The notes beneath the pieces are model-generated. The model saw nothing but the letters and a program-made list of their open reading frames with translations, was not told where the DNA came from and ran no database searches. Of a stretch of 36,596 nucleotides of DNA, positions 26,024-36,120 are shown one piece after another. This stretch comes from Clostridia bacterium (GTDB lineage: Bacteria > Bacillota > Clostridia > Oscillospirales > CAG-272): the NCBI GenBank assembly GCA_017503285.1, contig JAFVTH010000028.1, positions 1-36,596 of the forward strand. Reading direction: 5' to 3'. The translations under genes and the position numbers were made by a program. Every line of letters begins with the position of its first letter. Position 1 is the first letter of the stretch.

Positions 26024-26635
26024 ATGGAACAAAGAATTGAAGCAAATGCTCTTTTTAATATTGGCTATGGTCTTTATGCAGTCACCTATAACGACGGTGC
26101 AAGAAGCAACGGACTTATTGTAAATACAGTTGTTCAGGTAACAAGCACACCTCTTAAGGTAGCTGTAACAATAAACAAATCAAACTACTCCCACGATGTT
26201 ATAAAAAATACCAAAAAAATGAATGTTTGCCCCTTAACTATCGACACTCCCTTTGAGATTTTTGAAAAATTGGGCTTTCATAGCGGCAGGGATACAGACA
26301 AGCTTTCCGGTATTTTAAATTGGTCCAGCGCAAACGGTCTTGCCGTTTTAAGTGCTGACTATGTTAACTCATTTTTCTCCCTTGAGGTTTTGGAATATGT
26401 TGACCTTGGAACACACGGTATGTTTATTTGTGGTGTTACCGAGGCTGTGGAAATTTCCGACGTTGAAACAATGACCTATACCTACTATCACAAGAATGTT
26501 AAGCCAAAGCCACAAGCCAAGGCTAAGGGATACGTTTGTAAGATTTGCGGTTATGTTTACGAGGGCGAAAATCTGCCAGAGGATTTTGAGTGCCCTATTT
26601 GTAAGCATGGTGCAATTGATTTTGAAAAATTATAA
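26024..26635 (+). CDS. hrb: Flavoredoxin-rubredoxin fusion (high-molecular-weight rubredoxin)
   Basis: A 203-residue electron-transfer protein. Residues about 1-155 are a flavin-reductase-like FMN domain (LFNIGYGLYAVTYNDG, VNTVVQVTSTP, ANGLAVLSADYV). A short Lys/Pro linker leads to a C-terminal rubredoxin (169-203) with all four iron ligands in two CxxC pairs: Cys172/175 and Cys190/193. In Moorella and related anaerobes such a fusion transfers electrons to an oxygen- or NO-reducing flavodiiron protein; no such partner is in this window. Downstream of the thrS terminator, it may rely on read-through. Confidence 0.93.
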   Translation: MEQRIEANALFNIGYGLYAVTYNDGARSNGLIVNTVVQVTSTPLKVAVTINKSNYSHDVIKNTKKMNVCPLTIDTPFEIFEKLGFHSGRDTDKLSGILNWSSANGLAVLSADYVNSFFSLEVLEYVDLGTHGMFICGVTEAVEISDVETMTYTYYHKNVKPKPQAKAKGYVCKICGYVYEGENLPEDFECPICKHGAIDFEKL

Positions 26636-27029: not shown

Positions 27030-28610
27030 CTATACCTCTTTCGCTTGTGTGCCGGCTATGGCTTCAAGCTCTTTTTTTGTTTGTTCTATATCCAATGTTG
27101 AATATTGAATTGTAAGTATGTCGCCAATGCCAAGCTCCTTACCGCCGTGTCCGTCTAATTCAGCATTTGAATTCTCTGCTTTTTTAACCGATAAAACAAA
27201 CAGGTTGGCAGGCCAGAAAATATCTCTGATTTGCTTTCCCACTGCAAAGGAGCCGTTTTGAATTTCTATTTTTTCGTTAACCACAAGTGGTTCCTTGCCC
27301 TCGCTTTGCTCCTCAACCCTTTCCTCAAGGGCTCTATCATTTATGGATTTCACACCAAACGCCTCGCAAACGAAATATGCAACAAGGCTGACTATAATAA
27401 CCGGAATTATGTTATCCCAGCAAGCAAGCGCTTCTACGGCAAAAACAATTGCGGTAAGTGGTGTTTTAACCACGCCGGAAAGACAAGCCACCATACCAAG
27501 AATGACAATAACTGTCATAAGGCTTGAGTCCAGCCCCAGCATAACAAGTCCCTTGCCTAGCAAGGATGACACAAGTGCGCCTATGGCAAGGACAGGCAAG
27601 AACATACCGCCTGTGATGCCGTTTGCATTTGCGCTTAGTGTCAGGGTTGTTCTAATAACAAGGAGTGCTATTAAAACAAGCGCACTTGGGCTACTGAACA
27701 AAAGCTCCTCAATAAGCATATGTCCTGTTGAAATGCCGGAAAAGGAAAATACGCCGGCAATTAGTGTAAGGCTAAGGATTATAAATATTTTTACATAACC
27801 GGGGACCTTGGCAAGCTTTTTCTTAAACAGAACGCTAATTAGGTCATAATACTTTAGCATAGCTACGCCAAAAATTCCGACAACTAAACCAACAAGCAAG
27901 GGTATCCATAGCTGTGAAAGCTGAAGCGCTTTAATTTCGCTTATATGGAAAAGGCCAGGAGAAATACCAAGAAGCGGGCATAAAAGCTGATTTGTTATGC
28001 TTGCAAAAACAACAGATGAGGATGCAACCATCATAATGGTTGGTGAAATCCTTTGATGCGCCTCCTCTACAGCGAACAAAATGCCAGAAATCGGCGCTCC
28101 TGTAGCGACTGCAAAGCCGGCACAAGCACCTCCTGTCATAGAATATCTATCCCAGGCAAAACGTTTTCTTAAGACTATCCTTGTTGTTCCCCTGCCGACT
28201 GCAGTACCGATTTGGACAGATGGACCCTCGTTACCAAGTGGCACGCCCATCAAAAATGAAAGCAAGGACATAAGCACAACGCCAATCAGTGTGCGAAGCC
28301 ACTTGAAGGTCAAAATACCTCTCAAAATGCCAATTGAGGTGGGAATACCACCACCCTTTATGTCAGCCACTCTTTTGTTTACATGGTAAATAAGCAAGCC
28401 CAAAAGGAAGAATACTATAAGGGCTACGGGGATTAGGTACGGCATTCTGCGAATAAGCCCATAGCATGCTTGGGACAGGTTGATTGCGTAGCCTGCCAAA
28501 AACTTAAAAAGCGTAACAAATGCCGAGGTTAAGGTGCCTACAAAAAAGCCAAGCAAAATGGCAGGGACAACTAAGTTAACTATATAGTTGCCTACTTTTT
28601 TAAGTCTCAT
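27030..28610 (-). CDS. ClC family chloride channel/antiporter with C-terminal TrkA-C-like domain
   Basis: A 526-residue ClC protein. The membrane core (about 1-410) carries the three signatures: GGGIP at 86-90 (Gly for the usual Ser of GSGIP), GNEGP at 126-130 (Glu128, the gating glutamate) and GAPISGILFAVEEAH (Glu182/183, matching the internal proton glutamate of antiporter ClCs). Residues about 445-520 form a TrkA-C/RCK-C-like domain (GSFAVGKQIRDI, GIGDILTIQY), probably regulatory. Presence of both glutamates suggests H+/anion exchange. ATG follows GGGAGGTG. It is co-transcribed with the small ribbon protein. Confidence 0.92.
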   Translation of the reverse strand: MRLKKVGNYIVNLVVPAILLGFFVGTLTSAFVTLFKFLAGYAINLSQACYGLIRRMPYLIPVALIVFFLLGLLIYHVNKRVADIKGGGIPTSIGILRGILTFKWLRTLIGVVLMSLLSFLMGVPLGNEGPSVQIGTAVGRGTTRIVLRKRFAWDRYSMTGGACAGFAVATGAPISGILFAVEEAHQRISPTIMMVASSSVVFASITNQLLCPLLGISPGLFHISEIKALQLSQLWIPLLVGLVVGIFGVAMLKYYDLISVLFKKKLAKVPGYVKIFIILSLTLIAGVFSFSGISTGHMLIEELLFSSPSALVLIALLVIRTTLTLSANANGITGGMFLPVLAIGALVSSLLGKGLVMLGLDSSLMTVIVILGMVACLSGVVKTPLTAIVFAVEALACWDNIIPVIIVSLVAYFVCEAFGVKSINDRALEERVEEQSEGKEPLVVNEKIEIQNGSFAVGKQIRDIFWPANLFVLSVKKAENSNAELDGHGGKELGIGDILTIQYSTLDIEQTKKELEAIAGTQAKEV

Positions 28611-28702: not shown

Positions 28703-30277
28703 TTAAAAGTTACTACCAAAGGGGGTTGACCAGTTGTATGTCACCCTTTCGCCGTTGATTAAATACTCCTCCGGGCGAGTTGTTTCCATCCAGTCTAGAG
28801 GAATAAGCTCATCATTTTGAACGGATGCAACCTCAAAGGCTCTTCTTAATTCCTCATTTTCCTTTTCGTTAAGCACATTTGGCTTGCAGGAAACGAAGAG
28901 TGCTGAGCCACTTCTTGCAAGAATGTGAAGCCATTGACGGTTTAGTGACCAGTCAATTGCTCCGGTAATGCCAACGCAGTCAGCATCTGCGCCAAAGAAG
29001 GCATTATTCTGGGCAACTCTAAATGCAAGAGTATTAACACCCATTTTTGCTGTTCTGTTCCAGTCAAAGCCACTTGTGTCATCTCCTGTGCGATTAAGCT
29101 GATGAAGCCCCGCACAGAGGTGACCGATAACATTACAGCCGATGATTACAGCGCCGTTTGAGTTATCCTTAATGGTTCTATAAAAATTCTTAATGATTTG
29201 CGCGCTTGTTTTGGTTCTATCGTAAAAGCCCCAGCTACCCGTAGCAGGTGAATCTGTGATTTCAAAGCCCCACTTGCCAAAAATATCAAAGGTAGAAAAG
29301 TCGTGCTTTATGAGCTGGTATCCCCAGTCTACAATTTGCTGTGTGGTTTTTGCCACATATTCAAGCACCTGTGGATGTGATGGGTCTAAAACCTTGTTAC
29401 AGCGCGACAAATACCACTCCTCCGGGAAGGTATCAACCTTTCTTGGCTCGTCATCTCTGCCGTTTATTAGGTATCTTACCCAAATACCGGGGCGCACGCC
29501 AATGTCCTTCATTTCCTTGGCAAGGCGCTTCATATCCGGAAAATGCTCGTTTCCTGTATCCCAAGGGGCATCACAGGAGTGTGGCTGCCATCCGTCGTCG
29601 ATAACCATATATGGTATGTTTTCGTTATTTTTGCAAAGCTCCTTGACTATTTTTGTGTCGGAGATAATTTCCTCGTGGGAGCTTTTTCCATATGCGTAAT
29701 ACCAGTTATTTGAGCCATAAACCACATGGTCGGTTGTATATGGATTTGGACTCATAACCTTACAAAACTCCTTAAGGGCAGAAAACGCAGACATTTCTCT
29801 ATATTCCTTGAAGAAAATGGTTGCACACTCAAGATCATTTTCAAGAAGTGTTGGTAAAGCACCATTTCTTATATCAAGCCAAAGTGTCACGCCATAGCCA
29901 TCGCATTGCCAGTACGCCAAGGAATTTGCGCCAACCTTAACACCAAAGCATTCTGTCAAGCGACCGCTAAAATCTCTTATACTGTCGCTACCATTTGATG
30001 CAAGAAAGTACCAAGGCATATTTCTTTCGGGGTAAATACCACGCCATTCAAGGTCGCCATAGCCCCTTTCCCATGCGTCCCCAAGAATTTTTACATCCTT
30101 GCGCATTTTTTCGTTCCACCTAAGGCGAAGATATTTAACAGCTTGTCCCTTTGCCTCAAGGGTTACAGTAATGCCATCGTTTTCCCCATAGACTACTCTT
30201 GCCTTATCTGTGCTTCCGATTGTTAACACCTCATTTTCAAGATAAAGTGTTGCAATATCAGGTATTCTAAGCTTCAT
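28703..30277 (-). CDS. Glycoside hydrolase family 36-like alpha-galactosidase/glycosidase
   Basis: A 524-residue cytoplasmic glycosidase with a short N-terminal beta domain and a central barrel. GH36/melibiase features: YMVIDDGWQ (226-231), the nucleophile strand YQLIKHDFSTFD with Asp326, and RTGDDTSGFDWN with the acid/base Asp399 or 400. The protein is shorter than classical GH36 enzymes (about 700 residues) and lacks a signal peptide, so substrates would be imported oligosaccharides. Exact linkage specificity is unknown. Start at ATG 30277 has only a weak AAGA-type site. It follows the esterase by 51 bases in a three-gene operon. Confidence 0.87.
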   Translation of the reverse strand: MKLRIPDIATLYLENEVLTIGSTDKARVVYGENDGITVTLEAKGQAVKYLRLRWNEKMRKDVKILGDAWERGYGDLEWRGIYPERNMPWYFLASNGSDSIRDFSGRLTECFGVKVGANSLAYWQCDGYGVTLWLDIRNGALPTLLENDLECATIFFKEYREMSAFSALKEFCKVMSPNPYTTDHVVYGSNNWYYAYGKSSHEEIISDTKIVKELCKNNENIPYMVIDDGWQPHSCDAPWDTGNEHFPDMKRLAKEMKDIGVRPGIWVRYLINGRDDEPRKVDTFPEEWYLSRCNKVLDPSHPQVLEYVAKTTQQIVDWGYQLIKHDFSTFDIFGKWGFEITDSPATGSWGFYDRTKTSAQIIKNFYRTIKDNSNGAVIIGCNVIGHLCAGLHQLNRTGDDTSGFDWNRTAKMGVNTLAFRVAQNNAFFGADADCVGITGAIDWSLNRQWLHILARSGSALFVSCKPNVLNEKENEELRRAFEVASVQNDELIPLDWMETTRPEEYLINGERVTYNWSTPFGSNF

Positions 30278-30328: not shown

Positions 30329-31051
30329 TTATTTGATAATTTCGTCCTTTATATACTGTGCATATTTTAGCTTTGAATCGTAATCCAAATCACAGTGGCC
30401 TCTGTTCTTAACTATATCGTAGGTTATATCAAAGCCCTCTTTTTTCATCTTTTCGACAAAGAGATTTGAATGCTTTTCAATATTAACAGCATCGTCTGTA
30501 TCACAATGAAAAATGTGGTATTTTACCCTTGGTAGCTTTTCAATAAGATGCACCGGGGATAAGGATTTTAATCCTTCCTCAAGTGTGCCGTTTGTACCAT
30601 AAAGAGCACTATATAATGTTCTTGGCAAATCCACCCTTTCTGTGTAGTGGTAAACCACATCGCAAACCGGACAATTTGCAACGCAGGCAACCGGCGTCCT
30701 TTTTGCATACGCCATATAGGTTATTGCGCATTGACCACCCATACTGCCACCTGTGGACACAATCGGAGTGCTTTTCGGCAGGTCAAAATGTTCAAAAACA
30801 ACATCAATAATTTCGTCGGTGTAATCAACCTCTTGCCTGTTCATCCAGCCCCACGGGTTGTTATATGGGACAACGTAAAGTATGCCGTCCTTGCCATAAA
30901 ACTCGCCCTCGGTAGTGTCTCCACCGTTATACATGCTTTGACAGCCAAGACCAAAAAAGGAAATTACTACGCCCTTTATTGGCTTTTTTACTACACTGTC
31001 ATTTATATATGTATAATACCTGATTTTATCATAAGTAATTTGCTTTTCCAT
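30329..31051 (-). CDS. Alpha/beta hydrolase, putative esterase
   Basis: A 240-residue cytoplasmic hydrolase. GGSMGG at 101-106 gives the nucleophile Ser103; CDTDDAVN (183-190) and NRGHCDL (216-222, His219) supply the likely Asp and His. The layout resembles prolyl-oligopeptidase-like esterases that act on acylated sugars; the substrate is not readable. Between a sugar isomerase and a GH36 enzyme, a deacetylation role is an inference. ATG 31051 follows GAGGAC and is eight bases after the isomerase stop. Confidence 0.82.
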   Translation of the reverse strand: MEKQITYDKIRYYTYINDSVVKKPIKGVVISFFGLGCQSMYNGGDTTEGEFYGKDGILYVVPYNNPWGWMNRQEVDYTDEIIDVVFEHFDLPKSTPIVSTGGSMGGQCAITYMAYAKRTPVACVANCPVCDVVYHYTERVDLPRTLYSALYGTNGTLEEGLKSLSPVHLIEKLPRVKYHIFHCDTDDAVNIEKHSNLFVEKMKKEGFDITYDIVKNRGHCDLDYDSKLKYAQYIKDEIIK

Positions 31052-31059
31052 AAGTCCTC

Positions 31060-31905
31060 TTAGTCCCACATACCAAGATTTGGCTTTGGGGTAGATATAA
31101 CAGTTATTGGCTTGTTTTCAAAAACCTCATTTGCGTTTCTTACAAAATCCTCTGCTGTAAGGTCTCTGTCCCTTATAATAGTATTTGGGCATCCAAGATT
31201 AATTTCGTACATCCAAGGTCCGCTATATCCTATTTCCTTAAGCGCGCCAAGAATAGCTTGCCAATCAAGCTTACCCTCGCCCGGGAGCCAATGTCTTTCG
31301 TTTATAAAATCATAGTCAGAAATGTGTGTTGTTACAATTTTGCTTCCGATTTTCTTGATAAACTTAATCGGATCCTCGGAAAGTAAATGGTTAGTGTCAA
31401 AGCACGCCCTAAGGTCAGGGTGGGCAGTCAAAAGCTCTAAAATATCATCAGAATTTCTACCAAGGCAGGTGCGAGGCAGGTTCTCCACGCAAATGGTGGC
31501 TCCTCTTTTTCCGGCAAACTCTTGTAAAACATAAAGGCTTTTTTTAGCGCATGCCATTCTTTCTGCCCTTTTATCCTCATCAATCGGCTCACCACTTGGG
31601 TGAATAATAAATCTATAAATGCCGATAGATGTAGCTTTTTCGATCAATGAAGAAAGATATTCTATGCTATACTCACAGTAAGCAGGATGAGAAATATCAA
31701 TTTCATTAAATGGCATAAACGGAAGATGAAAGGAAAGAACGGTTACTCCATATTTTACGCTCCAGCTCTTTAACAATTCAAAATCCAAGGTTTTGTAGGC
31801 GTTTGATGAAATAGAAAGCTCTACAATTTTTACCCCTGCCTCCTTATACATTTGGAAGCGCTTTTCGTTAATAGTGTCAGTGGTTGACATTCCTATTTGA
31901 TACAT
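31060..31905 (-). CDS. Sugar phosphate isomerase/epimerase (xylose-isomerase-like TIM barrel)
   Basis: A 281-residue AP-endonuclease-2/xylose-isomerase-like barrel. Metal-ligand segments are visible: HPSGEP, CVENLPRTCLG, CFDTNHLLSEDP, THISDYD and MYEINLG. Such enzymes interconvert keto- and aldo-sugars or epimerise them; the substrate is unknown. First gene of the operon with an esterase and a GH36 glycosidase, together suggesting breakdown of an unusual, acylated oligosaccharide. No transporter is linked. ATG 31905 follows AAAGGAG at nine bases; an in-frame start at 31935 is unsupported. Promoter at 31937-31965. Confidence 0.85.
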   Translation of the reverse strand: MYQIGMSTTDTINEKRFQMYKEAGVKIVELSISSNAYKTLDFELLKSWSVKYGVTVLSFHLPFMPFNEIDISHPAYCEYSIEYLSSLIEKATSIGIYRFIIHPSGEPIDEDKRAERMACAKKSLYVLQEFAGKRGATICVENLPRTCLGRNSDDILELLTAHPDLRACFDTNHLLSEDPIKFIKKIGSKIVTTHISDYDFINERHWLPGEGKLDWQAILGALKEIGYSGPWMYEINLGCPNTIIRDRDLTAEDFVRNANEVFENKPITVISTPKPNLGMWD

Positions 31906-31936
31906 ATGATATTTCTCCTTTTGCTTTGTTATCATT

Positions 31937-31976: not shown

Positions 31977-32006
31977 AAAAAATCGGACACAGGGTCCGAT
32001 TTTTTT
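31977..32006 (-). terminator. Terminator of the AAA+ protease operon
   Basis: Minus-strand stem AAAAATCGGAC / GTCCGATTTTT, loop CCTGT, T-rich tail, six bases after the YbjN-like stop. Confidence 0.9.
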
Positions 32007-32011
32007 GTTTA

Positions 32012-32491
32012 TTATTGGTTTTCTTGATTGATAAATTGTTCAAGTGTGATTGCGCCCTTTGATAACATGAAGAACTTATCATTATAGTTATCGATTGTAG
32101 ATGCGGCAACCAAAATCATATGCTCAAAGAAGTCCGCACCAAGGCTGGAATCCTTGTAGCTGTTTGCAAGCTTGAATATGATTTGACCGCTTCCTATATC
32201 ATAATCAAAGCTTCCGCAGATCATACCGTTGTTTGCAACACAAATGGCAATAGCGGCGTCAACCCTCTTGTCCTCGCTAATCTCAAAGGGCAAACGAGAT
32301 AAGAATTGTACAACCTCCTGCTCTACCTTTACCTCAACAATAAATTCAATAGGAAGGTCTTCGCCCTTAATGCCACTAACTATTACCAGGTCCTCCTCCT
32401 TGGTATCGAAATTCCACTCCTTCTCTCTTAAGGAGCTAACCATGGTGTTAAATACAGATTTCGCCTTCATTAATTTGATTTGATCAGACAT
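32012..32491 (-). CDS. YbjN-like / type III chaperone-fold small protein
   Basis: A 159-residue cytoplasmic protein with alternating helices and a central beta sheet, resembling the YbjN/secretion-chaperone-like fold: VFNTMVSSLREKEWNFDTKEEDLVIV, LSRLPFEISEDKRVDAAIAICVAN, GSFDYDIGSGQIIFKLAN and the C-terminal MILVAASTIDNYNDKF. No catalytic motif. It starts nine bases after the stop of the AAA+ fusion gene, so it is in the same operon. YbjN-like folds bind other proteins, so an adaptor, substrate-delivery or regulator role for the protease is a reasonable inference. Confidence 0.8.
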   Translation of the reverse strand: MSDQIKLMKAKSVFNTMVSSLREKEWNFDTKEEDLVIVSGIKGEDLPIEFIVEVKVEQEVVQFLSRLPFEISEDKRVDAAIAICVANNGMICGSFDYDIGSGQIIFKLANSYKDSSLGADFFEHMILVAASTIDNYNDKFFMLSKGAITLEQFINQENQ

Positions 32492-32500
32492 TTTTATACC

Positions 32501-35500
32501 TCACTGATTTACGTATTTCGTTAAAATTTCATCAATTTCGTTTTCTTTTAGGTGGTTCTTTTGTAAAAGCGCTTCAACCAGCTTATCAAGAGCCTTCTTG
32601 TTTTCAGTAAGCTGCTGTATTGCGATTTCAAGCTGGACATCCAAAATTTCCTTAATTTTTGCCCTAACCTCTTGGTTTTCTATACCATTTGGCATGTAAA
32701 CAAGACCGATATCCGGATCCATACCATAATAACAAATCATTCTTTCTGCTCTTTGTGTAGCACTGCGAATATCTCCGCTTGCACCGGTGTCAATACCCTT
32801 TTCCCTACCGTAGTAAAGAATTTCAGATGCTCTTCCACCTAAGGAAACACGAATAAGATCAAGAAGCTCTGACTTTTGATATGTACCCTTGTTCTCGTTG
32901 CCGCCATGAAGCATATATCCACCATGGTCATCTCTTGCTACAATTGTCAAGTAGGTTGGTTTTTCGCCTGTTAGCCAGCAGGTAAGCGCGTGGCCAGCCT
33001 CATGTCTTGCTGTGCGCTCAAGTGCAGATGGATCCCATGTTTTCTTTTCGCCATTTTGGAATGTTTCAAAGGCTTCGTCAAAGGCTGCGTCGTTTACTGC
33101 GCCACTATCCTGACGGATTGAGTTTCTGAGCGCCATTTCAAATACAGACTCAAGGTCTGCAAGGCTCATTCCCGTTGAGCGAATAGATATGTTTTCTATT
33201 TGCTCGTCGCTTAACTGAACATTTGCGTTCTTGGAAATTTTCATCCTAAGGTACTTTTCGCGCTCTTCCTTGTTTGGAAGGTCTACTTGTATTCTTCTGT
33301 CAAAGCGACGAAGTAGTGCCGGGTCAAGGCTTCTTGAGCCCTCCCCATCTACACTAAAGTTTGTTGCAGCCAAAACAAACACCGGCTTAGTTGTATCAAC
33401 GTTAAAGCCATCAAGCTCCGTTAACAGCGCTGTTAATGTGTCGCCAACGGCAGATGATGTATTTGAGTCGCCATTTCTGTTTTTACCAACCGCATCAATT
33501 TCGTCAATGAACAAAATTGATGGTGCATATTTACGAGCTGTTTGGAAAATCTTATGCACAGCTGCAGAGCCTTCACCAACGTAGCTCTTTAAGAATTGGT
33601 TGCCCTCTGCTGTAATAAATGTAACATCGCTTTCGCCAGCCATCGCCTTTGCAAGCAAGGTTTTACCTGTACCCGGAGGGCCGTAAAGAAGCACACCTCT
33701 TGGTGCTCTAACCCCCTTGCGCATAAATTTGATTGGGTCCTTAAGATATTCTACAAAATATTTAAGCTCATCCTTAGCATCGTTTGCACCGATTACATCA
33801 TCAAACTTTACATTTGGCTTAGATATTTCGTCAAGCATACCCTTGGTGTCATCTGTATCTGTTGAAACAGCAAGCTTAAAGTCAAACAAGCTGATTTGTG
33901 CAGTTGTCTTATCCTTAGATACTGTTTGCAGAGTCTTAAAGGTTAAAACCTTATTTGCCTTTGCAAGCTTTTGCATATTGTGCTGCTGGTATGCAACATC
34001 ACATTTTTCCTTAACATTGTCTTGGAAGGCGTCGTTTACTGTAATTATGCCTCTTACTCCAATTTTTGCAAAGGACAAAAATTCCTCACTAGTTATATCC
34101 TTTTCGTTTTCTTGAATCAAATAAACAGGTGTGCTATATCTTGCAAGCACATAGTTAAGAAATTCTCTACCCTCAGATTTGATATCGTCAATATTTAGGT
34201 AGTTAATATCATTCTTTTGTTCCTTGCAGTTTAGGTCGCAAAGAATAATGTTTATATCATAGTTGAAAAGGATTTCCTTCGCCTCTTCAATTGTATCTGC
34301 AACCTTACAGCCTATTTCGCTAAGTCTCTTTTTGCAGCTTGCAGCCATTTTCTTCTCGGCAAAGATAAGAACATGTGGCTTAGCTGTGTTTACAAACATC
34401 TTTTTGATGTTTTCCTCGCTGTCCTCAAGGGAAACATTAATAACTATTTTCTTAAGGCTCTTTATGCTGGTTTTAACATTTTCTCTTGCAAGAAGCCTTA
34501 AAAGCTCATAAAGCTCTCCGTGGAAGAAGCTATTTGCCCTGCCCTTTACGGTTCTTGCATCTGCCTTACCACCCTCAGCAAGCATAAGCGCAGCCGGAAC
34601 CTTGTCATCAACCTCAATGCTTATGGAATTTTCTCTCACAAAGCTTTCTAAGTTTTTATCAAGCTCTCTTTCCGCAATGGTATAAAGCTCATTTGCGCCC
34701 AGGCGATTAAACATAACAACGTTACCAGAGGCAAATCTGGAGCATATTGCAGATGGGAAAAGAGGGCCACCTGTGTTTGGATTTATATCCTTTGCAAGGG
34801 CATTCATAATTGTTTTCTTGGGAAGCGCAGAAAGGTTTGTTACAGTCGTATCATCGTAAAGATTCTTGCCTGCATTTGTGGTAAAAATAACAATAGCCTT
34901 CTTGAAGGATACCTCCTTGTCGGTATAGTTATCTCTGAGCCTACCTGCATCAAGCATTTGTAGGAACAATTGAATTACATTAAGGTGCGCCTTTTCGACC
35001 TCGTCAAAAAGCAAAACGCAATTAGGATTTTTATCAACGAAGTCGGTAACGTTTCCAGGACTGCCGTTTTTATAAACCTTGTCTGAGCCACAAAACTCCA
35101 AATTGGCTTCCTTTTCGCAATATTCGCTCATATCGAAGCGCTTAAATGGCAAGCCAAGCGCCTCTGCAACCTTTTCAGAAAGGAAGGTTTTACCTACGCC
35201 CGGAGGGCCTGCAAAAAGGAATGTAGCCTTTGGCTTGTTTTCCTTTCTTGTATACGCCATAAGCTCTGACTGGAAATAGCCGGAAACAAATGTATCAATA
35301 GCCTCATCCTGTCCGAAAATGTTTTCAAGAAGTGTATTTTGGATTTTCCTTGTGTTTTCTACAATAACAGCAAGTCTATCAACACCAGCCTCCTCAGGAA
35401 TTTCCTCTACGGGCTCGGCCTTTGGTGTGCTTGCTTTTTTGGCATCCTTTGACTTTGTGGATACTTCCTTATTTAATATGTATTTAGTCATTTCTTCAGT

Positions 35501-35887
35501 TGGCTCTGCAAAAATTTGGCTAAGATACATAGTAGCATCAATTTCGCCCTTGCCCTCTTTGCGAGATTTGGTTTCAAGTACAAAATCTATTTTTTTGAAC
35601 ACGAAATTGCTGGCAGCAGTTTTGTCGCCAGTTTGCTTTATTGCCTCAAGCAAGCCGGCTTTGGCTGCTTTTATATCAAATTTGTACTTATTTAGCTCGT
35701 TTTCAAGAGACAGAAGCTCCTGGTTATCAGCCTCGTTTCCTGTGATTTCCTTTGGCTTTGTTTCCACAATTTCCAGTACAGCCAAAACAAAATCGTTTAT
35801 AGAAATTTGCTGTTCCTTAAGGTTAAGGTCCTTTCTGTTGTTGCCAGCTTTTTTAATTATAAGCTCTAATAGATTGCTTTTTTTCAT
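32501..35887 (-). CDS. Clp-type AAA+ / receiver-like / FtsH-type AAA+ M41 protease fusion
   Basis: An 1128-residue single reading frame. In order: a helical N-terminal region (1-140) resembling a Clp N-domain; a Pro/Lys/Glu linker (141-168); a Clp/Hsp100 class AAA+ module (about 175-480) with Walker A GPPGVGKT (227-234), FDMSEY (251-256) and Walker B VLLFDEVEKAH (291-301); a receiver-like domain (about 503-620) with ILCDLN (candidate Asp551); an FtsH-class AAA+ module (about 690-930) with GPPGTGKT (736-743), YVGEGS (769-774), ILFIDEIDA (791-799) and LDPALLRRFDR (854-864); and an M41 protease (about 950-1128) with HEAGH (His962, Glu963, His966), Asp1039 in TGASGDIRSAT, and C-terminal helices. 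No membrane helix, unlike FtsH. Both ATPases and the protease site look intact. AGGAGAAGG precedes the ATG. Expected to be an ATP-dependent cytoplasmic protease; substrates unknown. Confidence 0.93.
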   Translation of the reverse strand: MKKSNLLELIIKKAGNNRKDLNLKEQQISINDFVLAVLEIVETKPKEITGNEADNQELLSLENELNKYKFDIKAAKAGLLEAIKQTGDKTAASNFVFKKIDFVLETKSRKEGKGEIDATMYLSQIFAEPTEEMTKYILNKEVSTKSKDAKKASTPKAEPVEEIPEEAGVDRLAVIVENTRKIQNTLLENIFGQDEAIDTFVSGYFQSELMAYTRKENKPKATFLFAGPPGVGKTFLSEKVAEALGLPFKRFDMSEYCEKEANLEFCGSDKVYKNGSPGNVTDFVDKNPNCVLLFDEVEKAHLNVIQLFLQMLDAGRLRDNYTDKEVSFKKAIVIFTTNAGKNLYDDTTVTNLSALPKKTIMNALAKDINPNTGGPLFPSAICSRFASGNVVMFNRLGANELYTIAERELDKNLESFVRENSISIEVDDKVPAALMLAEGGKADARTVKGRANSFFHGELYELLRLLARENVKTSIKSLKKIVINVSLEDSEENIKKMFVNTAKPHVLIFAEKKMAASCKKRLSEIGCKVADTIEEAKEILFNYDINIILCDLNCKEQKNDINYLNIDDIKSEGREFLNYVLARYSTPVYLIQENEKDITSEEFLSFAKIGVRGIITVNDAFQDNVKEKCDVAYQQHNMQKLAKANKVLTFKTLQTVSKDKTTAQISLFDFKLAVSTDTDDTKGMLDEISKPNVKFDDVIGANDAKDELKYFVEYLKDPIKFMRKGVRAPRGVLLYGPPGTGKTLLAKAMAGESDVTFITAEGNQFLKSYVGEGSAAVHKIFQTARKYAPSILFIDEIDAVGKNRNGDSNTSSAVGDTLTALLTELDGFNVDTTKPVFVLAATNFSVDGEGSRSLDPALLRRFDRRIQVDLPNKEEREKYLRMKISKNANVQLSDEQIENISIRSTGMSLADLESVFEMALRNSIRQDSGAVNDAAFDEAFETFQNGEKKTWDPSALERTARHEAGHALTCWLTGEKPTYLTIVARDDHGGYMLHGGNENKGTYQKSELLDLIRVSLGGRASEILYYGREKGIDTGASGDIRSATQRAERMICYYGMDPDIGLVYMPNGIENQEVRAKIKEILDVQLEIAIQQLTENKKALDKLVEALLQKNHLKENEIDEILTKYVNQ

Positions 35888-35896
35888 GTCCTTCTC

Positions 35897-36061
35897 CTAT
35901 ATGATTGAGTATTCAAACAATTCATACTTTAATTTGGTGCCAATGTCAACATTTTGTGGCAAAAGTGCCATAGCGATAAAAAGCTCTTCGCCGCTTTCAA
36001 GCTCAGTTAAATAAGCATATTCGCCCTCTATCCGTGAAACTATGTAGTATTTTGTTTCCAT
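35897..36061 (-). CDS. DUF3006-like 54-residue protein
   Basis: Found by direct translation. Starts METKYYIVSRIEGEYAYLTE, then a Leu/Pro turn (MALLPQNVDIGTKL) and ends LFEYSII, matching the short beta-barrel pattern YIVDRIEG.YA.L...LP..V..G of DUF3006 proteins. The ATG at 36061 follows AAAGAGG at a suitable distance; the in-frame ATG at 36076 lies within the operator. The stop is nine bases before the AAA+ fusion start, so this is the first gene of the operon. No known activity; a small regulator or adaptor of the protease is possible. Confidence 0.72.
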   Translation of the reverse strand: METKYYIVSRIEGEYAYLTELESGEELFIAMALLPQNVDIGTKLKYELFEYSII

Positions 36062-36074
36062 TTCAGCCTCTTTC

Positions 36075-36092
36075 ATTACTATATATAGTAAT
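36075..36092 (-). promoter_or_regulatory. 18-bp perfect palindrome, candidate operator
   Basis: ATTACTATATATAGTAAT is identical on both strands. It overlaps the last two bases of the -10 box and covers the expected start point of transcription, the classic position of a repressor site. No regulator gene is adjacent, and the family cannot be named with confidence. Confidence 0.6.
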
Positions 36093-36120
36093 TATAGCAT
36101 AATGATATTTATCAAGTCAA
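36091..36120 (-). promoter_or_regulatory. Promoter of the AAA+ protease operon
   Basis: Minus strand: -35 TTGACT (36115-36120), 18-bp spacer, -10 TATAAT (36091-36096). Confidence 0.8.

Follow-up and report, generated by a model that had tools for sequence, protein, structure and literature searches.

The window analysed here comprises 36,596 nucleotides of a Clostridia bacterium (CAG-272; assembly GCA_017503285.1, contig JAFVTH010000028.1, forward strand, positions 1-36,596) and encodes on its minus strand a protein of 1128 amino acids that combines a Clp-type AAA module, an FtsH-type AAA module and an M41 peptidase in a single chain. The gene (32501..35887) starts with ATG and possesses no internal stop, in line with the original prediction of one uninterrupted frame. 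Pfam finds AAA_2, AAA and Peptidase_M41 in this order, so the two AAA+ classes and the M41 domain that had been read from the letters are indeed present in one protein. Their recurrence across related genomes, named at that time as possible support, is found in 24 further copies that share this order. We regard this fusion architecture as established. FtsH is commonly described as a membrane protein with a single AAA ring, whose counterparts among the Clp unfoldases use a separate protease. With moderate confidence, we favour the reading in which the fusion product would be a soluble protease with two rings, controlled by an adaptor of YbjN type, and part of accessory stress or conflict loci.

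The host genome is a 1.50-Mb draft (completeness 74.7%), which encodes elsewhere a separate FtsH of 744 amino acids as well as Clp-type frames; the fusion is therefore extra to the host set. NCBIfam models cover the window protein in parts: FtsH_fam matches residues 687-1118 (349.3 bits, cut-off of 600 not reached) and ClpA residues 168-435 (179.2 bits, cut-off of 993 not reached), and a whole-chain model is not found among the matches listed. Solved structures matching the protein number 376; the best 60 of these are of the p97/Cdc48, FtsH and AFG3L2 types, with the top-scoring stretch falling within the protein's second half.

Modules and conserved residues

The fusion gene contains the following features, with AAA1 and AAA2 denoting the first and second AAA module:

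32501..35887, minus strand, Clp-like/receiver-like/FtsH-M41 fusion gene, 1128 amino acids
35438..35887, minus strand, Clp-N-like region, residues 1-150 (15-row profile A4, weak)
34778..35236, minus strand, AAA1, Clp type (AAA_2), residues 218-370 (Pfam, E 1.7e-35)
35186..35209, minus strand, Walker A of AAA1, residues 227-234 (motif inspection and alignment)
35054..35092, minus strand, AAA1 pore-loop region, residues 266-278 (alignment; deleted in subfamily B)
35000..35017, minus strand, Walker B of AAA1, residues 291-296, DE295-296 (motif inspection and alignment)
33968..34438, minus strand, receiver-like (pseudo-receiver) region, residues 484-640 (22-row profile A3 versus PDB)
34235..34237, minus strand, Asp551, where a receiver has its phospho-accepting Asp (present in all 22 rows of A3)
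33281..33694, minus strand, AAA2, classic FtsH-type AAA, residues 732-869 (Pfam, E 1.1e-51)
33659..33682, minus strand, Walker A of AAA2, residues 736-743 (motif inspection and alignment)
33494..33517, minus strand, Walker B of AAA2, residues 791-798, DE795-796 (motif inspection and alignment)
33299..33310, minus strand, shortened second-region-of-homology motif RRFD, residues 860-863 (comparison with FtsH controls)
32525..33019, minus strand, Peptidase M41, residues 957-1121 (Pfam, E 6e-28)
32990..33004, minus strand, zinc site HEAGH, residues 962-966 (alignment)
32771..32773, minus strand, third zinc ligand Asp1039 (alignment)

The window protein thus has the Walker A and B motifs of both modules, HEAGH and the third zinc ligand, all of them noticed earlier from the sequence, together with sensor-1 N338 and N843, R384 and R860/R861. 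Arginine finger, pore loop, ClpP-docking loop and receiver motifs are names for what we take to be these elements; the pore-loop role of residues 266-278 in particular is presumed from Clp proteins. Judged by its motifs, the window protein is likely to be an active ATP-dependent protease. All 23 copies that reach that far, including L162, retain HEAGH and the distal Asp, and Walker B of AAA1, Walker A of AAA2 and Walker B of AAA2 are each kept in 23 of 24 copies, with L162 as the exception. Nineteen copies, the window protein among them, have an AAA1 loop of full length, and L162 has a shortened one. An active two-engine state is plausible for the window protein on this pattern; it does not hold for all relatives.

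Two further characters separate the fusions from FtsH. The short RRF motif occurs in 23 of 24 fusions versus none of 19 FtsH controls, which carry RPGRF or RAGRF instead. No membrane segment is predicted by our hydropathy script in any of the 24 fusions (L162 comes nearest, at the rounded threshold of 1.6, and L161 lacks its N-terminus), whereas each of the 19 FtsH controls has at least one; the suggestion that the protein is soluble, its membrane part gone, is borne out to this extent. An IGF-like triplet for ClpP docking is lacking in residues 338-386 across the 24 copies, a comparison with a weak control, as the triplet is seen in one of three host Clp-type genes.

The N-terminus and the insert between the AAA modules are recognised through family profiles. 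The 15-row profile A4 of the N-terminus matches the ClpA N-domain structures 1mbu, 1k6k and 1lzw at E 0.006-0.007, with unrelated matches starting close by (E 0.015-0.04) and an i-Evalue of 0.28 for the best single stretch against the ClpA N-domain. The 22-row profile A3 of the insert yields 36 PDB matches up to E 10, 28 of them named as receivers; the top match is a de novo protein (E 0.00018) and the best natural one LuxO (E 0.0059). In single-member Pfam scans at E up to 1, Response_reg is found in 7 of 22 inserts (best 0.0011) and OKR_DC_1_N in 8 of 22 (best 0.00063), neither of them in the window's member. The window's receiver region searched alone gives nothing further useful in Pfam or PDB, and neither this region nor the N-terminus of the window protein has a convincing Pfam match alone. 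Both assignments are likely on the profiles, the receiver more so than Clp-N. The Clp N-domain-like start of the original prediction hence survives weakly, through the family profile (E 0.006) and with no convincing Pfam match of its own; its receiver-like insert stands at the profile level, minus the acidic pair and the Lys of a canonical receiver. Asp551, on strand beta-3, is shared by 23 of 24 copies and is all that the insert retains of what we take to be the receiver set (acidic pair, Asp, Thr/Ser, Lys). Because the acidic pair and Lys are lacking, phosphorylation is unlikely and the insert is termed a pseudo-receiver. The receiver profile reveals no relation to the YbjN-like protein encoded next to the fusion.

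Copies, distribution and phylogeny

Including the window, 25 fusion copies with the same domain order are present on 24 contigs, one of them 264,714 bases long. Although these copies stem from draft assemblies, the presence of 24 further copies on 23 other contigs shows that the fusion is not an assembly join or a chance frame, and the fusions also form a single clade; we give a chimera practically no chance, and an assembly join is rejected as an explanation. Two copies (L072 and L161) are cut by the contig end. The copy L010:7995-11465 contains at least one in-frame stop between its halves, due to a broken gene or a sequencing error, and is for this reason outside the counts based on 24 copies.

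The fusion is sparsely distributed. A pattern scan of genome contigs yielded five loci from 65 pattern matches, and 8 of 57 close genomes have a match over both halves. The order-wide sample contains 14 such matches in 13 of 394 genomes (1035-1788 bits; with two candidates scored in each genome, the scan may overlook second copies), the next score being 404 bits for the FtsH part only; the remaining 381 genomes each gave some match, none over both halves. Besides the window's own genome, 2 of 391 genomes in the class sample and 2 of 398 in the phylum sample pass 1e-130. No place covering 80% of the query occurs in the 529 matching plasmid or 91 matching phage records, and an origin as a phage or plasmid gene was rejected on that basis. 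At least 80 loci matched in IMG/VR; the two best (L074, L075) are ordinary FtsH with membrane segments, and no matched stretch of the other 78 is longer than about 1.8 kb in the match table, so a fusion copy may be present in IMG/VR.

In a tree of the AAA2-M41 part, a single branch (support 90/97, 86% of bootstrap trees) splits 23 fusions from 20 other M41 proteins. The tree excludes L072 (cut) and L031 (no FtsH frame); 5 of the 17 loci L055-L071 were used as FtsH controls. Subfamily A comprises 16 rows including the window, among them L162, placed here uncertainly on a very long branch; subfamily B consists of L033, L159, L160 and L161, and subfamily C of L035, L032b and L166. The branches of L176 and L162 are long, and the program warns of false joins for such rows. 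A single fusion origin would fit this tree. In the one close pair compared, L160 and L161 of subfamily B, 881 overlapping codons have a nonsynonymous divergence (dN) of 0.009 and a synonymous divergence (dS) of 0.272, which indicates purifying selection.

Genome G024 contains one copy of subfamily A and one of subfamily C on the same contig; the two fusions at L032 (2726-5611 and 11292-14981), of different subfamilies, lie about 5.7 kb apart on one contig. The divergent fusion L162:7573-10458, with ATPase residues missing from each AAA module but the zinc site intact, is perhaps an ATP-independent peptidase. L176:2858-4123 encodes an AAA-M41 protein of 421 amino acids on a very long tree branch, whose frame starts at the AAA module and has no Clp half.

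Gene neighbourhoods and the empty site

In the window, the fusion is flanked on both sides by a small gene of the same strand:

35897..36076, minus strand, DUF3006-like gene, 59 amino acids, 9 nucleotides upstream of the fusion (PF11213, E 0.0002, below its cut-off)
32012..32491, minus strand, YbjN-like gene, 159 amino acids, 9 nucleotides downstream of the fusion (PF10722, E 0.00048, 20.8 bits, cut-off 22)
36091..36120, minus strand, promoter-like site ahead of the three genes (consensus matched at 11 of 12 positions, spacer 18)
31977..32005, minus strand, terminator-like hairpin after the YbjN-like gene (sequence scan)

Promoter-like sites in the region number 15 versus a mean of 8.8 in shuffles, and terminator-like sites 6 versus a mean of 4.2. 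The minus-strand order is DUF3006-like gene, fusion, YbjN-like gene, followed by the genes 31060-31935, 30329-31069, 28703-30277 and 27030-28610; upstream of the fusion the contig continues for 0.7 kb. In the congener G005 (locus L198), a DUF3006-like gene (77% identical) is directly followed by counterparts of 31060-31935, 30329-31069 and 28703-30277 (60, 59 and 77% identical), then by one other gene and a CLC gene (58%). The fusion and the YbjN-like gene are thus both absent at that site in G005. By the aligned flanks, one border coincides with the stop codon of the DUF3006-like gene, and the other precedes a conserved region ahead of gene 31060-31935. The remainder of the G005 genome (76% complete) gives no match over both fusion halves. 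This joint absence is compatible with gain or loss, in one step or more.

Neighbours were counted within three genes of the fusion at 24 loci, over whatever flank each contig offered and with our own gene picking; the family scan covers 145 of 154 picked proteins, with 25 of 103 and 25 of 130 families listed. YbjN-like genes adjoin 8 of 24 fusions, namely those of the window, L008, L012, L154, L157 and L165 by a hidden Markov model (HMM), and L033 and L159 by PF10722 or cluster. PF10722 scores (cut-off 22 bits) are above the cut-off for L033 (54.1), L168 (25.5) and L008 (24.4) and below it for the window (20.8) and L012 (14.5); the window's gene gives nothing further useful in Pfam or PDB searches. 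Searches for YbjN, RyR, CARF and Cas10 were made in 20 fusion genomes, a set without the genomes of L008, L010 and L012, which are represented by contigs. Here the YbjN profile finds 14 matches with E values of at most 0.001, of which 11 exceed 140 bits; 7 of these 11 adjoin a fusion, spread over four loci.

YbjN genes also accompany another AAA protein. At three of seven loci in fusion-free genomes (L205:6353-8350, L206:2303-4318 and L211:6569-8635; L205 and L206 are 93% alike), a YbjN family gene lies directly downstream of an AAA protein of 665-688 amino acids with AAA_lid_6; no AAA partner was found at the other four. This association hints more strongly than any other observation here that AAA machines are served by the YbjN-like protein. 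YbjN structures are described in the available parts of PMC5398634 and PMC3575483 as having a type-III-chaperone-like fold, with a function suggested to be exerted via protein binding, and a protease role is not mentioned in these parts. A YbjN-gated role of the fusion is a good hypothesis, on which we are evenly divided. Sigma-like and small Cys/His genes precede the AAA protein in L205 and L206, as in L155 and L165. The upstream genes of L034, L155 and L165 (266-304 amino acids) are sigma-like by eye, which is not proven: those of L155 and L165 have no Pfam match, and only the relative L205 reaches Sigma70_r2 (25.5 bits, cut-off 24). A CAP12/Pycsar-type TIR gene (L205:10320-11711) lies near the AAA_lid_6 protein of L205. 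The AAA_lid_6 proteins and their YbjN neighbours possibly form a parallel system. At L167:7049-14771, two YbjN-like genes lie near a vWA-like protein and a tubulin/FtsZ-like protein of 1260 amino acids, both identified by eye.

Other neighbours have signalling or conflict themes. CARF genes are present at 4 of 24 loci (CARF2 in L032b and L035, CARF4-PDDEXK in L034 and L156), large TrkA/RyR-like proteins at five (L009, L032, L038, L039, L155) and small RyR proteins at four (L012, L032, L038, L039); L038 has a TIR gene and L159 a TIR-like one. The large TrkA/RyR-like proteins are labelled as membrane proteins by eye, and one of the five passes a Pfam cut-off (TrkA_N in L038), the rest being assigned by HMM. 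At least one YbjN-like or signalling-type neighbour is found at 17 of 24 loci. None occurs at L011, L158, L160, L161, L162, L072 and L166, the last having only unknown subfamily C genes as neighbours; for the short contigs L033, L034, L072, L158 and L161 an absence means little. In the 20 fusion genomes, three of seven RyR matches above 100 bits (nine matches in all), two of three CARF2 matches and two of seven CARF4-type genes lie at the fusion. Since only a part of these matches adjoins it, these families also have members at other places in the fusion genomes. Pairs of a small RyR and a TrkA/RyR-like protein are located away from the fusion in fusion-bearing genomes (L170:4903-7072 and L171:4330-6888). 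A direct link to type III CRISPR was considered and rejected: none of the 20 genomes has Cas10/Csm1 above the cut-off, with nine weak matches below it.

Proposed function, alternatives and known systems

In the favoured reading, the fusion product would be a cytosolic, single-chain, two-ring ATP-dependent zinc protease, assembled as a hexamer. The Clp-N-like region and the YbjN-type (type-III-chaperone-like) partner would select or hand over the substrate, the Clp-type ring would pull it in, the pseudo-receiver spacer might couple the rings or take regulatory input, and the FtsH-type ring would thread the chain to the M41 zinc sites. The second ring would thereby stand in for the FtsH membrane anchor, and the whole would be an accessory module of stress or conflict loci that degrades proteins under the control of a signal or an adaptor. 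This reading draws on the domains and motifs, the separate clade, the lack of predicted membrane segments, the purifying selection in one pair, the separate FtsH and Clp-type genes of the host, the joint absence of fusion and YbjN-like gene in G005, the YbjN-like neighbours, the co-occurrence of both families, the AAA partner of YbjN in fusion-free genomes, the chaperone-like YbjN fold and the precedent of RssB with ClpXP. More tentatively, the two-ring metalloproteases may be interchangeable effectors of modular CRISPR-independent signalling loci, in which a CARF, TrkA/RyR-like, TIR or YbjN trigger is relayed by the pseudo-receiver.

Several observations weigh against the adaptor-gated two-ring protease. 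L162 has lost the ATPase residues of both AAA modules and retains HEAGH and the Asp; the AAA1 pore loop is deleted in L033, L159, L160 and L161, their Walker residues being kept, and the AAA2 pore loop is four residues short in L011 and L165. A YbjN-like neighbour is absent at 16 of 24 loci, and Pfam support is thin for several of those present, with no Pfam YbjN match in L165. The co-occurrence that speaks for the adaptor has limits of its own: among the 394 order-sample genomes, 13 have the fusion, 12 the YbjN family and 5 both, versus 0.40 expected (P 1.2e-5), a value that ignores shared ancestry, uses a YbjN profile built from fusion-adjacent genes and treats both 394-genome draws as the same set, since their listed handles agree. 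In two of the five (G049 and G053) the YbjN gene is located away from the fusion, and 7 of the 12 YbjN-family genomes are without a fusion. The window itself contains no CARF, RyR, TIR or TrkA-like neighbour in a flank that reaches 0.7 kb upstream.

The last point bears equally on the possible but doubtful alternative of a conflict effector, in which a nucleotide or membrane signal (CARF, TrkA/RyR-like, TIR) activates the protease and degradation of host or phage proteins stops infection. It draws on the CARF, RyR and TIR genes near the fusions, on the two of three CARF2 matches at the fusion, and on the patchy distribution and empty site; opposed to it are the low shares of CARF4-type and strong RyR matches at the fusion, the lack of Cas10/Csm1 above the cut-off, the plasmid and phage records without an 80% place, and the partial nature of all PADLOC matches. 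A single engine, with AAA1 as a docking or oligomerising ring and the FtsH-type AAA2 alone threading the substrate, would account for the AAA1 loop deletions with retained Walker residues in subfamily B. We hold this unlikely, given the full-length AAA1 loop of the window protein and of 18 others, the R384 and sensor Asn of AAA1 kept in the window protein, and the AAA2 pore-loop losses in L011 and L165. Housekeeping-like quality control, in which the soluble protease would clear damaged proteins of the cytosol, choosing substrates through Clp-N in the ordinary way and answering to no signal of its own, fits the complete motor and protease motifs and the purifying selection in one pair; with no both-halves match in 381 of 394 order-sample genomes and a YbjN-like or signalling-type neighbour at 17 of 24 loci, it appears improbable.

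Compared with FtsH and other M41 proteins, the fusion shares the classic AAA with its Walker motifs and the M41 domain with HEAGH and distal Asp, and FtsH_fam is its best NCBIfam match; it differs in the lack of predicted membrane segments, RRF in place of R-P/A-G-R-F, its separate clade, a score below 600, and the extra Clp-type AAA and receiver-like part. With ClpA, ClpC and ClpB (Hsp100), it shares the AAA_2 module, which matches the second half of the ClpA profile, and weakly the Clp-N-like region. In contrast to these, it has just one Clp-type AAA and its own attached protease, and the fusions lack the IGF-like triplet in the stretch tested under the weak control given above. The insert resembles response-regulator receivers in its profile matches, mostly to receivers, and in the beta-3 Asp, but lacks the acidic pair and Lys and sits inside a protease chain. 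IetA of IetAS is paired with a separate subtilisin-type protease, whereas the protease of the fusion is of M41 type and in the same chain. The PADLOC IetA profile matches AAA2 and the preceding stretch (residues 632-946, 8.2e-51), and none of the PADLOC matches (IetA, DolB, others) spans the chain. Neither a subtilisin partner nor, by Pfam, MoxR and vWA partners are found among the seven other window proteins scanned, on a contig ending 0.7 kb upstream.

According to the available part of PMC7226468, ClpXP receives substrate from RssB, a protein of receiver type. FtsH ternary conflict systems, as described in the available part of PMC7159879, place FtsH-type AAA in conflict loci: the component concerned carries a pair of FtsH-type AAA domains, of which the first is inactive, and is accompanied by MoxR and vWA, with rare variants having Clp-N repeats fused to vWA; a Clp-FtsH-M41 fusion is not mentioned in that part. 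The word 'fusion' does not occur in the available part of the FtsH review PMC9020784. No Clp-FtsH fusion enzyme is among the matches listed in open-licence full-text literature, in agreement, for such papers, with the earlier statement that no characterised enzyme has this order; a description elsewhere, in the subscription literature, is possible.

Three observations go beyond the original prediction: the adjoining YbjN-like gene, the empty site in the congener and, near the fusions of relatives, genes for CARF, TrkA/RyR-like and TIR proteins. If the favoured reading holds, a Clp ring on an FtsH ring in a soluble chain would represent a new way to build a self-contained machine for degradation; one could then ask whether two unlike motors cooperate, what part the pseudo-receiver plays between the rings, and whether proteins of the YbjN type can act as protease adaptors. 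The neighbouring genes offer concrete candidate signals.

Apart from the fusion, the window encodes at 26024-26635 a flavin reductase fused to a rubredoxin-like domain.

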